Shown: positions 14,923 through 20,502 of the stretch, piece after piece | Layout of the letters: each line of letters starts with the position of its first letter | Numbering within the stretch: position 1 is the stretch's first letter | Assembly (NCBI GenBank): GCA_002011745.1 | Contig: MTOU01000033.1 | Coordinates: 1 to 36,048, forward strand | Direction: 5' to 3' | DNA: 36,048 nt | Origin: Nitrospirae bacterium JdFR-85 | Lineage (GTDB): Bacteria > Nitrospirota > Thermodesulfovibrionia > Thermodesulfovibrionales > JdFR-85 | The notes under the pieces: model-generated | What the model was told of the DNA's origin: nothing | Database searches by the model: none | The model's input: only the letters and a program-made list of their open reading frames with translations | Program-made: the position numbers and the translations under genes

Positions 14923-15261
14923 TTAGTATATAGAACGCACTCTCCCTGTTTTTCTGTCAAATATTATTCTGTCCACAACTCTACCGTCCTCGAGAATCTC
15001 AGCTATAACAAATCTACCCTCCGTTGATCTAATCACTGCCTTAAGATTCTTTTTCCCATAGTATGCTTCAAGGGCCTCAACAGCCTCTTTAATTGAGAGC
15101 ATCCTGGGACAGACACCATATCTGGTGCACCTGCGACAGAAATCACCATAAGGTGTAACAGGTCTGTCTCTCTGCCAGCCTGCTGCTGTTGCTGGAATAA
15201 ACATTGTCAGGATTACCAATACAATAAATAGTGACTTAAAGGACCCCTTTATATAACCCAT
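14923..15261 (-). CDS. Exported small protein with CxxC motif, unknown function
   Basis: The 112-residue protein starts with a positively charged end and a hydrophobic helix (SLFIVLVILTMFIPATAAG), a probable signal peptide cleaved after TAA or TAAG. The mature part opens with a Cys cluster, FCRRCTRYGVCP (C-x2-C-x5-C), and then a PepSY-like alpha/beta segment: SIKEAVEALEAYYGKKNLKA, FVIAEILEDGRVVDRIIFD. The Cys cluster may bind a metal or form disulfides; the rest suggests an inhibitor-like or binding fold. I do not recognise the family. Its stop abuts the dtd start. The ribosome site is weak. Confidence 0.7.
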   Translation of the reverse strand: MGYIKGSFKSLFIVLVILTMFIPATAAGWQRDRPVTPYGDFCRRCTRYGVCPRMLSIKEAVEALEAYYGKKNLKAVIRSTEGRFVIAEILEDGRVVDRIIFDRKTGRVRSIY

Positions 15262-15345: not shown

Positions 15346-15921
15346 CTAAATCGGTCTTCTAAGATAGAGATAGGCTCCCAATAGAAAAGGCTCAAACCTA
15401 ATAATCATATTATCAGTAAACTGCCATAAGAACTGCCATAAGAATATTCTAATAAAACTTTTGGATTCATATCCCCGGAGCATCATCACCCTTGTTATAT
15501 TCTCTCCTTCTAAAGAGAAAACATATATAAAATGTACTACAATTAGAAGGCATAACCCCTCAATATATACCCTAAAAAGTCTTTTGTGCTTTCTTTTAAG
15601 ATAAGAAAACATTGCTACCATAATTGCGAGACTGAGAGGGGTATTAAAAGTATATACCGATGTTTTCACATTTATCTCAATGGCAATTCTTGATCTAAAT
15701 CTCTCCGGGAAAAAAGACACTACTGTAGTGTCTCCTTTCTGTTTCATACCTATAACTTCAACATCTTTTAACATACTTATCAGATGAGAGGCTACTGTAG
15801 TGACGCCTTTTGCATAGAAATCCTTTGTTTTTATCCATATACCAAGAAATATAAAATAGGATATGAAGAAAATCAATCCAGTCTTAAGCAGTGGTCTGAG
15901 TGTGCTTTTCTTTTGTTGCAT
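15346..15921 (-). CDS. Exosortase H-associated membrane protein
   Basis: I place the start at ATG 15921 (MQQKKSTLRPLLKTG), which overlaps xrtH by 38 bases; a start at 15948 would extend further into it. The 191-residue protein has an N-terminal membrane helix (TGLIFFISYFIFLGIWI), a periplasmic region (FYAKGVTTVASHL, DTTVVSFFPERFRSRIAIEINV), and two or three further helices (LSLAIMVAMFSYL, LCLLIVVHFIYVFSL, plus a C-terminal hydrophobic WQFLWQFTDNMI region). XrtH genes are often followed by such an associated membrane protein; I infer that identity from position and architecture rather than a diagnostic motif. Its function in sorting is not known. Confidence 0.65.
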   Translation of the reverse strand: MQQKKSTLRPLLKTGLIFFISYFIFLGIWIKTKDFYAKGVTTVASHLISMLKDVEVIGMKQKGDTTVVSFFPERFRSRIAIEINVKTSVYTFNTPLSLAIMVAMFSYLKRKHKRLFRVYIEGLCLLIVVHFIYVFSLEGENITRVMMLRGYESKSFIRIFLWQFLWQFTDNMIIRFEPFLLGAYLYLRRPI

Positions 15922-16390
15922 AATATAGATAGAGGACAAATATGGCAAGAGCTATAGCAATCATTATTCCCTGTGCAATATACAGATGTATTATTTCAAA
16001 CATTTCCTTCATATGGACACCAGCGTATCCCAATGCTACAATTCTTATAATATTCAGTACCTGTATTACTATAAATCCTACAACTATTCCTGCTGCCCGT
16101 ATTCTCCATCTTGCAGGATAACTGATCACCGCCACTGTATAAATCATCACTGCTTCAAGCCCATTACAGCCAAATCTCACATCTAGGGCTATTGAGGGTA
16201 GATAGATAATCGAACCATTTACAGAAGACTGGATACCCACGGTCTGAAGAATCTTAGATGTTATTTTTACAATAGAGTTTGTGTATATTCCATTAATATC
16301 TATAATATCCTGTACAGGCTTTAAACCAATAAGGAGAAAAAAAATTCCCATTAGTATAAGATAGGTTAAGAGAAAACGTCTAAGACTCAT
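15884..16390 (-). CDS. xrtH: Exosortase H (IPTL-CTERM-specific sortase)
   Basis: The 168-residue integral membrane protein has four to five helices and the exosortase catalytic set: Cys in RFGCNGLEAV (about residue 75), Arg in LNIIRIVALG (about 116), and His in EIIHLYIAQG (about 139). These are thought to cleave C-terminal sorting signals and transfer the protein to the cell surface. Its substrate is encoded immediately upstream and carries a PTLEQWG signal, which is the specificity of XrtH. It follows that gene after nine bases and overlaps the associated membrane protein, so all three should be co-expressed. The start ATG 16390 lacks a clear ribosome site and probably relies on coupling. 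Confidence 0.88.
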   Translation of the reverse strand: MSLRRFLLTYLILMGIFFLLIGLKPVQDIIDINGIYTNSIVKITSKILQTVGIQSSVNGSIIYLPSIALDVRFGCNGLEAVMIYTVAVISYPARWRIRAAGIVVGFIVIQVLNIIRIVALGYAGVHMKEMFEIIHLYIAQGIMIAIALAIFVLYLYYATKEKHTQTTA

Positions 16391-16398
16391 TTGCTTGT

Positions 16399-17109
16399 TT
16401 ATTTAAACTCTTCCTGCTGTCTTTTTCTCAGCCTCATAGCTGCAGCACCTGCAAGAAAGGCAGCCATTGCAAGGGTACCCCACTGTTCAAGAGTTGGTAC
16501 AGCAGTAGGCTGACCTCTGTCTCCAGCAAGAATCGGTGTATTACACTGGTCCTCGTATGCCCAGTCTATTATGGTGCCTGAAGACGCATCAGCAGCTCCT
16601 TCAAACTGTATCCATCCATAGTGGTAGTTGCCACTGTTGCATTGAGCACTGATAAACCTCACCCCAATGTAGCCCCTCTGGCCAACAAAATTACCATCAG
16701 TACTCCCATATTTATTAGAGTATAAAGCAAGTATATCACGGCTCTCATAATCCCAAGAAAAAGAAGGATTTACCAAAGTAGCCCTGATAGGATAACTTGT
16801 AGGAAGTCTCGCAGGGTCACCATTAGCAGTAGTATCGATCCAGCTATCTCCTAGAGTAAAGGGATTAATGGCCAATGTGTTTATTATGTAACCATAATAA
16901 TATGAGTAAAAAAAATAAAATCTAAAATCAACCACTCCATCTCCATTGAGGTCAACATCTACTGGAGTATTAAATGCATCCACTGTCAAATTCTGCAGAC
17001 CACTGTACTGTACTGCAGCCTCTGCCTGTGAAGCCACTACAAGGGCACCTGTTGCCACCGCCGTGTAGGCTTTAAGTCTCCTTTTAGTAGATTCTTTCAT
17101 GCTTTTCAT
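16399..17109 (-). CDS. IPTL-CTERM surface protein, exosortase H substrate
   Basis: The 236-residue protein has an N-terminal signal peptide (KAYTAVATGALVVASQAEA). The C-terminal sorting module VPTLEQWGTLAMAAFLAGAA is followed by a basic tail (MRLRKRQQ), which is the IPTLxxWG-CTERM pattern with V for I. The mature part is rich in Tyr, Asn and Gly and contains DVDLNGDGVVDF, a calcium-loop-like D-x-N-x-D, and two Cys (AQCNSG, DQCNTP) that could pair. No enzymatic domain is recognised; a secreted surface or matrix protein is likely. Start at ATG 17109 follows GTAGGAGGTTTATT. First gene of the operon with xrtH. Confidence 0.88.
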   Translation of the reverse strand: MKSMKESTKRRLKAYTAVATGALVVASQAEAAVQYSGLQNLTVDAFNTPVDVDLNGDGVVDFRFYFFYSYYYGYIINTLAINPFTLGDSWIDTTANGDPARLPTSYPIRATLVNPSFSWDYESRDILALYSNKYGSTDGNFVGQRGYIGVRFISAQCNSGNYHYGWIQFEGAADASSGTIIDWAYEDQCNTPILAGDRGQPTAVPTLEQWGTLAMAAFLAGAAAMRLRKRQQEEFK

Positions 17110-17209: not shown

Positions 17210-17692
17210 TCAAAACCTTATATACCACACATCTTGTCCTCTAAGGTTCTTTCCATAATATCTTAATCCTTTCCGTTGGAGCCACCTTCTGATCCCTTTT
17301 CTGTAAAACTTTGGATTTTCCATTATCATGACTATCCCTTCAGGCCGGGGATTATATTCATAATCCTTCAGAAACAGATAGGTCTGTTCTGCTATAAAAC
17401 TGATAAGACCAAGATTTCTGCGGTCCTCGGGACGGATAAACATTCTATAAAAATAGAAGGGTTTCTCAAAATCCACTAACTTCCTTATATGTACTGTATT
17501 AACTCCTATGATATCTCCCCTTTTGCTCCTAATAATAAATACCACCTGATGTACTCTTTGTTCTGCTATTTCCTTAGACAAAGCCCTATGGGTAAGCCAA
17601 AATCTTATCACCTCCTCCCGTATCTGCTCTGACATACTCTGATAAACATTCTCAAGTATATAATCTCTATAAAAAAACCTTGTCCTTAGCAT
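17210..17692 (-). CDS. GNAT-like protein coupled to the phosphodiesterase-sulfotransferase gene
   Basis: Start chosen at ATG 17692 (MLRTRFFYRDYILENVYQS), which overlaps the upstream stop by seven bases; an upstream in-frame start at 17740 would lie deep in that gene. The 160-residue protein looks like an acyltransferase fold: QVVFIIRSKRGDIIGVNTVHI (beta strands), then FYFYRMFIRPEDRRNLGLISFIAEQ, where the family's acyl-CoA loop lies, and a C-terminal segment NPKFYRKGIRRWLQRKGLRY typical of GNAT ends. No classical Q/RxxGxG/A loop is clean, so the call is tentative. Coupling to the upstream giant gene suggests modification of the same product, such as a polysaccharide or lipid. That is inference. 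Confidence 0.6.
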   Translation of the reverse strand: MLRTRFFYRDYILENVYQSMSEQIREEVIRFWLTHRALSKEIAEQRVHQVVFIIRSKRGDIIGVNTVHIRKLVDFEKPFYFYRMFIRPEDRRNLGLISFIAEQTYLFLKDYEYNPRPEGIVMIMENPKFYRKGIRRWLQRKGLRYYGKNLRGQDVWYIRF

Positions 17693-20502
17693 TTTATCCC
17701 TCTGCCCTGTCTCTTCAGAGAGGGGTCCACTGCTCTGCACATTCTTTCTTCATCGAGTCTTCCATTCAAGAATTGATTTACCCTCTTTGCCGTTTCTTCA
17801 GGCCTCAGCAGTGTCTCATTGTAGTCCACATACAAGGTGGGTATCTCCCTGGCGGCCAGCATCAGGCGGGCCTGTGTCAGTTGGTGTGAGAATATCTTCT
17901 TAAGTGTCTCGTCTGATAGTGTTGCTCCCTTTTTCCCCTGTCTCTGGAGCATTCTCCTTTGTGAGGCAACTACCTCGTCAAGGTTTCTCAACATGAAGAT
18001 GATTCTGTAATTTATATCCTCCTGTCTCGGTAAATAATACAGAAGTTGTGTCACAATCTTTACCGCCTTACCCTTTGCATCAGGAAGCCACGAAGCGTCT
18101 CTTTTGAGTTGTTTTGCCTTCTCAAATTCTAAGTACCCCTTTGGGTTGTCCTCGTCAGGTTTCCGCAAATCATCGGTAAGTATGGGAAAGCCTCCCTCTT
18201 TTAACATCTGCATCATCATGGAGGTGCCTGATCGGGGAAGTCCTGATACTATCACCACCGTGGTATCAGGTTCAAAGGAACTGCTGAGAAGGGCCTGCTG
18301 TGCTTCAAGCAACCCTACCTGGTCAGAGGTTATTGAACGGGTAGCTTCCTCTGTCTTGTCAGCAGTTACAGAAAGCTTGCCTTCCTTTATGAGCTTGAGT
18401 CTTCTTGCTGCTTCCTCAGCAAGCCTTTTATGTCTGTCTGCTAATAGCTCGTCCTTTAAGCGGTTCCTGTAAATATAGGCTAATCTCCTGTGAGCCTCTG
18501 GGAAGTTCGGGTTCTGATGAACAGCCAGTTTCAGTGCCTGGACAGCCTCATAAAGCCTGCCTGTACGGTGCAGAGCTACTCCGAGAAAGTAATGTGCCCT
18601 CGGATTGTGAAACTGCAGTCCCACTGCGTCAAGTCCTGCCTCCACAGCCCTCTCATTCTCCCGTCTGCCAAGATATACTCTGCACAGACCGAGACATGCC
18701 TCAGCACTTTCAGGGTCTATCTCCGATGCCTTCCTGTAACACCTTTCAGCCTTATCCCATCTCTTTATCTTGAGATACACCTCTCCAAGTTTGGTATAGA
18801 GTGCAGGTTGAGACCTTTCCGTCCTTTCTGCTGCTTTAAGGTGTTTAAGTGCCTCCTGCAGCCTGTCTTCTTTAAATAACAGACTCCCCATCAAAAATTC
18901 CATTGTGTAAGGGTTTCTGCCTGCCTCAGCCCTGAGCTTTCTCAGTCTTCTGTGGTCCTCCTGAGTCCACTCCTCTGGAGACTTGTCCTTCATCTTTTCT
19001 CTGAACCCTTTCAACTCCAACCTTGCCTTCCTGGTGTTCTTCCTCTTCCTCTCAAATACTTCTTCAAGCACTCTTCTCGCCTTTACAGTCTGCTCAATAG
19101 CCTGATAACAACTGACCAGTTGGATTCCGAAACGGTACTCATCAGGGTATCTCTCGTACAGGTCCTCCAGCATCGGTATCGCCTTTGAGTACAGTCCAGC
19201 GTCCATGTATGAGCGTGCCTCGTTGTAATGGAGTTCTCTTACGCAGTCTTCCACAGCCTTCTGTTTATCTTTATCAGGCTCTTCTATATAGCCCAATTCA
19301 ACCAGTTGTTTGATAGCCTCCTTTGTTTCTATAGGATCTATCCTCCAGTCGGGTGGATGACTGCCGTCCTCTCCTGGCACATCGTCCCAGCTCGGTATGA
19401 CCCTTATCTTAGGAGGCTGTTCAAATATGTTTACCAAAGGTTTACCGTCCATGTCTTCACCCACGGGAAGTCCCAGAATAGTAAGCACAGTAGGACATAC
19501 ATCAAGCAGACTCGCTCCGTAGATTATCTCGTCCTTTTTTATCCCTGGCCCTTTTGCAACGAATATCCCGTAGTGGCGGTGCTGTAGAGCAGGCCCTGCC
19601 GGTTCCATTGGAATATGTCTTGGCCTCATTTGGTCAGAGTGAAAACCGTGGTCTGAGACAAGAATCACCACAGTGTCATCACCTGCCCTCTTCAGAAGGG
19701 TACCCAGGAGAAGATCGTGGTAGATATAACCACTCTCTACTATATTTTTATATAATTCATAATCCCTTTCATTTATCCATGGCAATTTTGGCGGGTGGTA
19801 GTTTATAAAGCCGTGGCAGAAGTGGTCTATTGCATCATAATACACTGCAGCAAAGTCCCATGGTTCATGGTCAAGTATGGCAGTGGCTGCTCTGTTGATG
19901 GTGGTACAGTCTGCAATAATCTTGGCTATGTTCTCTACCCTGCGGTCTTTTTCCTGGTCAATCTCAGACAGTTTGGGCAGAAATTTCAGAATGAGTCCCA
20001 CATCCAGTTCTTGAGGATGGAGCCTGAGTTGAGCAAGAGGGCGAATGAGTCTTTCTGGATATATAGAGCCCGGCCTCACAGGCCAGGGCTTTCCATAAGG
20101 TACCACAGCCCTCTGGTAGTGGTTTGAGACCATTACACCATTGATAGGCTCCACAGGATGGGAGGGCCACCAGCCAACCACCACACATTTCTTTCCTACA
20201 AGTGTGAAAATGTTCCAGATTGCTCGTGTCTTTCTTGAAAGAGTGGTTATAGGCCGAACGCCCTCACCTGAAGGATCAGGTTCTATAAAACCAAGCACTC
20301 TGTGCTTGTACGGACGCTTCCCAGTGGCTATTGAGGTCCAGAGCATTGGAGAAAGAGAGGGATAAAGGGTGGCAAGATTACCCATCACTCCTTCATTGAT
20401 AAACCTCTCAAGATTGGGCATCTTGCCTGCTTCAATCAGGGGATGGATAATCTTCCAGTCAGCCCCATCCCATCCGATTAATAGAACTCTTTTTACCCTC
20501 AT
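17686..20502 (-). CDS. Three-domain fusion: alkaline-phosphatase-superfamily phosphodiesterase, TPR, sulfotransferase
   Basis: Residues 1 to about 380 are a type I phosphodiesterase/nucleotide pyrophosphatase domain: metal Asp in LIGWDGADW, a Ser/Thr nucleophile region in TLYPSLSPMLWTSIATGK, DAIDHFCHGF, and metal Asp-His in VSDHGFHSD. Residues about 400-690 contain tetratricopeptide repeats (LYTKLGEVYLKIKRWDKAER, AEACLGLCRVYLGRRENERA, AHYFLGVALHRTGRLYEAVQ). Residues about 750-938 are a sulfotransferase-like domain with the PAPS phosphate loop VVIVSGLPRSGTSMMMQML and the RNLDEVVASQRRM 3'-phosphate motif. No signal peptide is seen. It starts at ATG 20502 without a Shine-Dalgarno, just after a promoter, and is followed by a coupled GNAT-like gene. 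Substrates are unknown; an envelope glycan or lipid is plausible beside the exosortase operon. Confidence 0.85.
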   Translation of the reverse strand: MRVKRVLLIGWDGADWKIIHPLIEAGKMPNLERFINEGVMGNLATLYPSLSPMLWTSIATGKRPYKHRVLGFIEPDPSGEGVRPITTLSRKTRAIWNIFTLVGKKCVVVGWWPSHPVEPINGVMVSNHYQRAVVPYGKPWPVRPGSIYPERLIRPLAQLRLHPQELDVGLILKFLPKLSEIDQEKDRRVENIAKIIADCTTINRAATAILDHEPWDFAAVYYDAIDHFCHGFINYHPPKLPWINERDYELYKNIVESGYIYHDLLLGTLLKRAGDDTVVILVSDHGFHSDQMRPRHIPMEPAGPALQHRHYGIFVAKGPGIKKDEIIYGASLLDVCPTVLTILGLPVGEDMDGKPLVNIFEQPPKIRVIPSWDDVPGEDGSHPPDWRIDPIETKEAIKQLVELGYIEEPDKDKQKAVEDCVRELHYNEARSYMDAGLYSKAIPMLEDLYERYPDEYRFGIQLVSCYQAIEQTVKARRVLEEVFERKRKNTRKARLELKGFREKMKDKSPEEWTQEDHRRLRKLRAEAGRNPYTMEFLMGSLLFKEDRLQEALKHLKAAERTERSQPALYTKLGEVYLKIKRWDKAERCYRKASEIDPESAEACLGLCRVYLGRRENERAVEAGLDAVGLQFHNPRAHYFLGVALHRTGRLYEAVQALKLAVHQNPNFPEAHRRLAYIYRNRLKDELLADRHKRLAEEAARRLKLIKEGKLSVTADKTEEATRSITSDQVGLLEAQQALLSSSFEPDTTVVIVSGLPRSGTSMMMQMLKEGGFPILTDDLRKPDEDNPKGYLEFEKAKQLKRDASWLPDAKGKAVKIVTQLLYYLPRQEDINYRIIFMLRNLDEVVASQRRMLQRQGKKGATLSDETLKKIFSHQLTQARLMLAAREIPTLYVDYNETLLRPEETAKRVNQFLNGRLDEERMCRAVDPSLKRQGRGIKC

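Follow-up and report, generated by a model that had tools for sequence, protein, structure and literature searches.

A predicted AlkP-TPR-sulfotransferase fusion enzyme is linked to a family of exported, C-terminally sorted proteins that carry an N-terminal leader

The stretch of DNA that was analysed (36 048 nucleotides of contig MTOU01000033.1 of Nitrospirae bacterium JdFR-85, hereafter the window) encodes a protein in which an AlkP-type hydrolase, a TPR solenoid and a PAPS-type sulfotransferase are fused. In several phyla, the gene of this fusion is adjacent to and co-occurs with that of an exported beta-rich protein (the cargo), independently of the system that sorts the cargo. A leader motif at the cargo N terminus, LxxxLxxY[ST]xxA, was in Bacteroidia specific to genomes that contain the fusion. 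The link between fusion and cargo is well supported. We give about an even chance to the reading that the fusion is a dedicated cytosolic enzyme which modifies exported, C-terminally sorted beta-sandwich proteins before their export and is guided to them by the leader. The features of the window are collected in Table 1.

Table 1. Features of the fusion locus in the window, with the evidence for each.
Feature	Position	Strand	Evidence
AlkP-TPR-sulfotransferase fusion gene, 938 aa	17686..20502	minus	ORF list, Pfam, 13 full-length relatives
AlkP/NPP-type hydrolase domain, residues 6-365	19408..20487	minus	Pfam, invariance, nucleophile alignment, fold
TPR solenoid, fusion residues 413-706	18385..19266	minus	Pfam and predicted structure
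PAPS-type sulfotransferase domain, residues 748-932	17707..18261	minus	Pfam, invariance, SULT1/TPST profile match
176-aa ORF, earlier labelled GNAT-like	17210..17740	minus	No family match
Cargo, 236-aa exported beta-rich protein	16399..17109	minus	Neighbourhood comparison; model pLDDT 81.5
Cargo N-terminal leader (KESTKRRLKAYTAVATGALVVASQAEA; Tyr15)	17005..17100	minus	Leader profile match E 2.6e-12; occurrence with the fusion
Cargo core domain (YGWI...DWAYE)	16513..17013	minus	Comparison of cargo sequences
Cargo IPTL-CTERM sorting signal	16420..16506	minus	PF18203 and TIGR04174
Exosortase H (XrtH)	15884..16390	minus	TIGR04177, 91.6 bits (cut-off 86)
Exosortase H-associated membrane protein (XrtH_assoc)	15346..15948	minus	NF041730, 48.3 (cut-off 35)

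The first-pass annotation had described the three-domain fusion with exact coordinates and length; the strand, which it had not given, is minus, and the ORF starts with ATG. All three domains exceeded their Pfam cut-offs: PF01663 matched residues 6-289 (91 bits, cut-off 23), several TPR families matched residues ~425-690, and the C-terminal part was matched by Sulfotransfer_3 (33.4 bits, cut-off 27) and, at residues 750-926, by Sulfotransfer_1 (22.4, cut-off 22). The predicted structure of the whole fusion had a mean pLDDT of 79.2. Scanning of the genome collection yielded 13 more full-length copies of the architecture (34-69% identity) from Nitrospirae, Bacteroidales, Saprospiraceae, other Bacteroidetes, Opitutae/Verrucomicrobia and one deltaproteobacterium. 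Conservation over the full length of the architecture thus extends to five lineages, and the architecture occurs in Nitrospirota, Bacteroidota, Verrucomicrobiota and one deltaproteobacterium. Since the same full-length protein, with its conserved residues, recurs in other genomes, misassembly or chance fusion was ruled out. No hydrophobic segment of the signal-peptide type was seen in the first 60 residues, where the highest 19-residue hydropathy was 0.72. Because the N terminus also opens straight into the AlkP fold, the fusion is apparently cytosolic. In the freely readable literature, our search returned no paper combining a sulfotransferase with an exosortase or T9SS and none on the fusion architecture.

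Every catalytic position expected in the two end domains was invariant in the alignment of the 14 fusions. In the hydrolase these are D12, S51, D226, H230, D284, H285 and H308, that is, the nucleophile and two-metal ligand set, so the metal ligands, whose completeness had been left as a question, are all present. In phosphonoacetate hydrolase and Xac NPP, the residue that aligned with S51 is the nucleophile Thr. In fold searches with the predicted model, the first domain matched PafA (Z 24.7) and ENPP/NPP structures (Z ~23). The fusion therefore has its fold (Z 23-25) and two-metal residue set in common with the NPP/ENPP and PafA hydrolases of the AlkP superfamily, from which it differs in its apparently cytosolic location, in Ser at the nucleophile position and in being joined to TPRs and a sulfotransferase. 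Type I sulfatases, which use formylglycine, have the motif C/S-x-P-x-R. The nucleophile sequence of the fusion is S51-P-M-L-W and the family context is S-P-x-L-W, which excludes a formylglycine sulfatase that would reverse the transfer.

In the sulfotransferase domain, GLPRSGTSMMMQ occupies fusion residues 754-765. Its 5'-phosphosulfate (PSB) loop GLPRSGTS (residues 754-761), earlier described as an intact PAPS loop, was invariant in 14/14 fusions. Equally invariant were R839/S847, the 3'-phosphate pair that is a feature of PAPS-dependent sulfotransferases (PF13469/PF00685), and E792, a candidate catalytic base judging from the alignment. The domain was compared by sequence profiles only, fold searches with the whole model being filled by TPR and AlkP matches; its profile matched SULT1 structures and, across a short segment, those of TPST. 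A look for PAPS-synthesis genes, suggested by the first-pass annotation, detected APS kinase in 18/18 fusion genomes, the window's genome among them, although 11/14 controls have it too. More telling than this count is one Bacteroidia genome (G591), in which the APS kinase gene (L145:7644-8237; TIGR00455, 246.7 bits) overlaps the fusion stop codon. At another locus (L121) an APS kinase gene lies ~1.1 kb from the fusion gene. A supply of PAPS for the fusion is plausible.

The cargo gene, which the first-pass annotation did not include, was the recurring partner across the fusion neighbourhoods; in the window it is two genes downstream of the fusion. The cargo combines a signal peptide with a beta-rich core, marked by (Y/F)GW[IV]...DxAY[EN], and a C-terminal sorting signal. 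Its core had no family match in Pfam or NCBIfam, and its fold no confident match in the PDB (best Z 6.7, BfrB of B. fragilis). The fusion family was represented by 65 genes, a set that includes some split or shortened copies and one duplicate record. A cargo gene lies no more than 1.3 kb from 49 of them and no more than 600 bp from 43; in 48 cases it shares the strand of the fusion gene, and it is upstream about as often as downstream. Leaving aside alternative reading frames of the fusion gene, the neighbourhoods had no other gene family widely in common. Co-occurrence was pronounced in each group surveyed, with Fisher p-values that overstate independence because the genomes are related: among 245 Nitrospirota, six have a full-length fusion and exactly those six have a cargo (p 4e-12; two of them, G209 and G234, had been left out of profile building); among 188 genomes of the verrucomicrobial class of G265, 21 have the fusion, 26 the cargo and 13 both (p 3e-8); and among 295 Bacteroidia the figures are 24, 59 and 22 (p 2e-15). 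An independent-pairs test on the cargo core tree had no power, the tree being too poorly resolved. No recognisable cargo was found beside the fusion gene, or at all, in G656, G577, G442, G346, G376, G413 and G338. Three fusion neighbours that did not match the cargo profile (L024:10569-11747, L118:3976-4830 and L146:7699-8901) have N termini that look leader-like by eye (LSDRIKAY, NQWTNYVTS and WMDLYCAI, respectively). Nitrospirota cargos end in IPTL-CTERM, those of Verrucomicrobia and the deltaproteobacterium in PEP-CTERM, and those of Bacteroidetes in a T9SS signal (Por_Secre_tail). As the C-terminal signal changes with the phylum, the fusion is tied to the cargo and not to a sorting enzyme.

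Most fusion-linked cargos have the leader motif in common, located before or inside the signal peptide; KRRLKAYTAVATGAL from the window and KKLKSYSALAGS from Bacteroidia are examples at the signal-peptide border. A strict regular expression retrieved it from 31/43 fusion genomes versus 1/29 non-fusion genomes. A 32-row profile matched 20/20 fusion genomes and 0/20 controls (the cargo core is present in most of these controls); many of its rows came from the surveyed genomes and all were picked with the Tyr, so its sensitivity is partly circular, whereas its specificity is not. Of the 295 Bacteroidia, the profile picked out 22 genomes; every one of these belongs to the 24 that have the fusion, and the 271 fusion-free genomes gave no match. 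The two fusion genomes that the profile did not match, G577 and G656, are also the two that gave no cargo matches. The cargo core is as well conserved in genomes that lack the fusion as in those that have it, so it is the leader that varies with the fusion; for the same reason the Tyr of the DxAYE core motif was rejected as a fusion-specific acceptor. Unlinked cargo paralogues also carry the leader in fusion genomes (G472, G501, G626, G684, G731, G016 and G234). G485 (L135, L236-L246) gave up to ~26 leader matches; most are divergent paralogues of the cargo, spread over numerous contigs, which makes this a large cargo expansion served by one fusion gene. As the full-length matches of this genome are almost all cargo paralogues, the idea that the leader tags a wide range of unrelated proteins was rejected. 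As exceptions, a few of the cargos in fusion genomes have no leader. Its Tyr is missing from Opitutae cargos (L027-L031) and from some other verrucomicrobial cargos, and thus cannot be a universal acceptor.

The fusion had been placed beside the exosortase H operon and coupled to a GNAT-like protein. The operon is present in the window, and the exosortase H/IPTL-CTERM system is expected to process and sort the cargo in the window genome, but among ~60 fusion neighbourhoods, some cut by contig ends, an XrtH homologue was found only in the window and in its sister genome (L018). Exosortase H was therefore rejected as a functional anchor. The end of the operon contains a 112-aa ORF (14923-15261) that matched no Pfam or NCBIfam family. 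As for the second statement, the 176-aa ORF does overlap the fusion 3' end (17686-17740), but the GNAT label was not supported: searches returned only chance matches in Pfam (E up to 10) and none in PDB sequences (E up to 5). The only relative found, in G014, is truncated. In Opitutae, unrelated small ORFs overlap or closely trail the fusion 3' end. Related verrucomicrobial ORFs overlap or lie just past this end (L027:5590-6045, L028:10871-11302, L029:4616-5539, L031:10498-11313 and L122:4126-5190). These seem acetyltransferase-like by eye, and the three checked had no Pfam/NCBIfam match. In two verrucomicrobial genomes (L112:3115-5073 and L113:2106-4070), the gene overlapping the fusion 3' end encodes a TPR membrane protein, that of L112 being weakly similar to PrsT.

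In the proposed mechanism, the TPR arm, alone or together with the sulfotransferase domain, would recognize the leader on the cytosolic precursor. The C-terminal domain would then move sulfate from PAPS onto the precursor, either onto the leader Tyr or onto a hydroxyl residue of the core. If the Tyr lies in a signal peptide that is cleaved off, the exported protein would no longer have it, which argues against the former. The AlkP domain might perform a linked hydrolysis, such as clearing PAP, an inhibitory by-product, or taking off a phospho- or sulfo-group, and the modified precursor would pass Sec and be sorted by exosortase or T9SS. What we infer beyond the observed adjacency, co-occurrence and leader specificity is leader binding, sulfation, the acceptor residue and the hydrolase substrate. 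The full export-coupled system, in which the fusion reads the leader in the cytosol, sulfates the whole family and passes the proteins to the sorting machinery of the phylum, is put forward tentatively, at somewhat less than even chances.

Sulfation by the fusion of a glycan or lipid that holds exported proteins (an exopolysaccharide or an LPS-like anchor), with an indirect link to the cargo, is unlikely but deserves the most weight among the alternatives. Exosortase systems have been linked to exopolysaccharide (PMC1569441), and split forms of the fusion keep this explanation alive. Sister genomes from the window's family (G003-G007) have a stand-alone sulfotransferase relative, ~50% identical, beside an AlkP protein. 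At L036:2387-9310 (also L037 and L039) this pair, with a short AlkP protein, is clustered with PEP-CTERM proteins and PrsR, a PEP-CTERM-box response regulator (TIGR02915, 674 bits). In G577 and G672 the sulfotransferase is encoded as a separate neighbouring gene. These split forms indicate that hydrolase and sulfotransferase go with each other, and with sorted exported proteins, also where they are not fused. Against an indirect link, it is the cytosolic N-terminal leader of the cargo that tracks the fusion and not the C-terminal anchor signal, the same fusion is found alongside three different sorting signals, and the cargo has no rival as a widely common neighbour.

The large TPR arm, the position of the leader in the signal-peptide region and its co-occurrence with the fusion would also suit a dedicated factor for export chaperoning or quality control; it would bind the leader, and its catalytic domains would sense PAPS/PAP or nucleotides by acting on small molecules. 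We consider this quite unlikely, because two complete active sites are strictly conserved, the loss of which a non-catalytic scaffold would tolerate; catalysis is accordingly favoured over a scaffold. The presence of both enzymes in one chain had led the first-pass annotation to propose successive editing of one substrate; spelled out, both domains would edit the same group in sequence, within the exosortase H pathway. Both sites are intact in one chain, but this version is very unlikely: nothing points to a common substrate of the two domains, S-P-x-L-W is not a sulfatase motif and the fusion is not bound to exosortase H. Joint inheritance of a two-gene cassette, with no direct contact between enzyme and substrate, would fit the adjacency of the genes and a core tree that does not resolve independent gains, but is highly improbable given that unlinked paralogues in fusion genomes carry the leader, which is missing where the same core occurs in genomes without the fusion.

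The enzymatic reading of the fusion, as a leader-guided modifier of the cargo, has a partial precedent in RaxST of Xanthomonas (raxSTAB), for which sulfation of a leader-bearing molecule ahead of its export has been proposed (PMC4216712). RaxST is likewise a bacterial PAPS-dependent sulfotransferase with a proposed cytosolic action on a leader-bearing precursor and a dedicated PAPS synthesis (PMC4216712). It is, however, a stand-alone enzyme encoded beside a peptidase-type ABC exporter, whereas here the sulfotransferase is joined to an AlkP domain and TPRs, and no exporter gene family of this type was common to the fusion neighbourhoods. The likely substrates are Sec-type precursors of ~200-500 aa with C-terminal sorting signals and a different leader. 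Since exporter, leader type and architecture differ, the fusion was not classed as a member of the RaxST system. A second likeness is to the YSIRK signal peptides of Gram-positive bacteria, whose conserved motif, within or adjoining the signal peptide, labels one class of surface proteins with C-terminal sorting. The cargo leader is similarly a conserved motif by the signal peptide of such proteins, but it occurs in diderm bacteria and is tied to a modifying enzyme and not to a sortase. Its consensus, LxKKLKxYSAxA, has no IRK and does not contain the YSIRK-x-G motif.

To our knowledge, bacterial protein sulfation has been documented in very few cases. The evidence presented here ties a sulfotransferase to a large family of exported proteins in several phyla and names its likely substrates. 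These results suggest that the fusion and the cargo family, in at least four bacterial phyla, form an undescribed system that modifies proteins before export. An N-terminal signal tracks the modifying enzyme in this system while the C-terminal sorting signal varies freely. The leader motif predicts the likely substrates genome by genome, which makes the substrate question directly testable.
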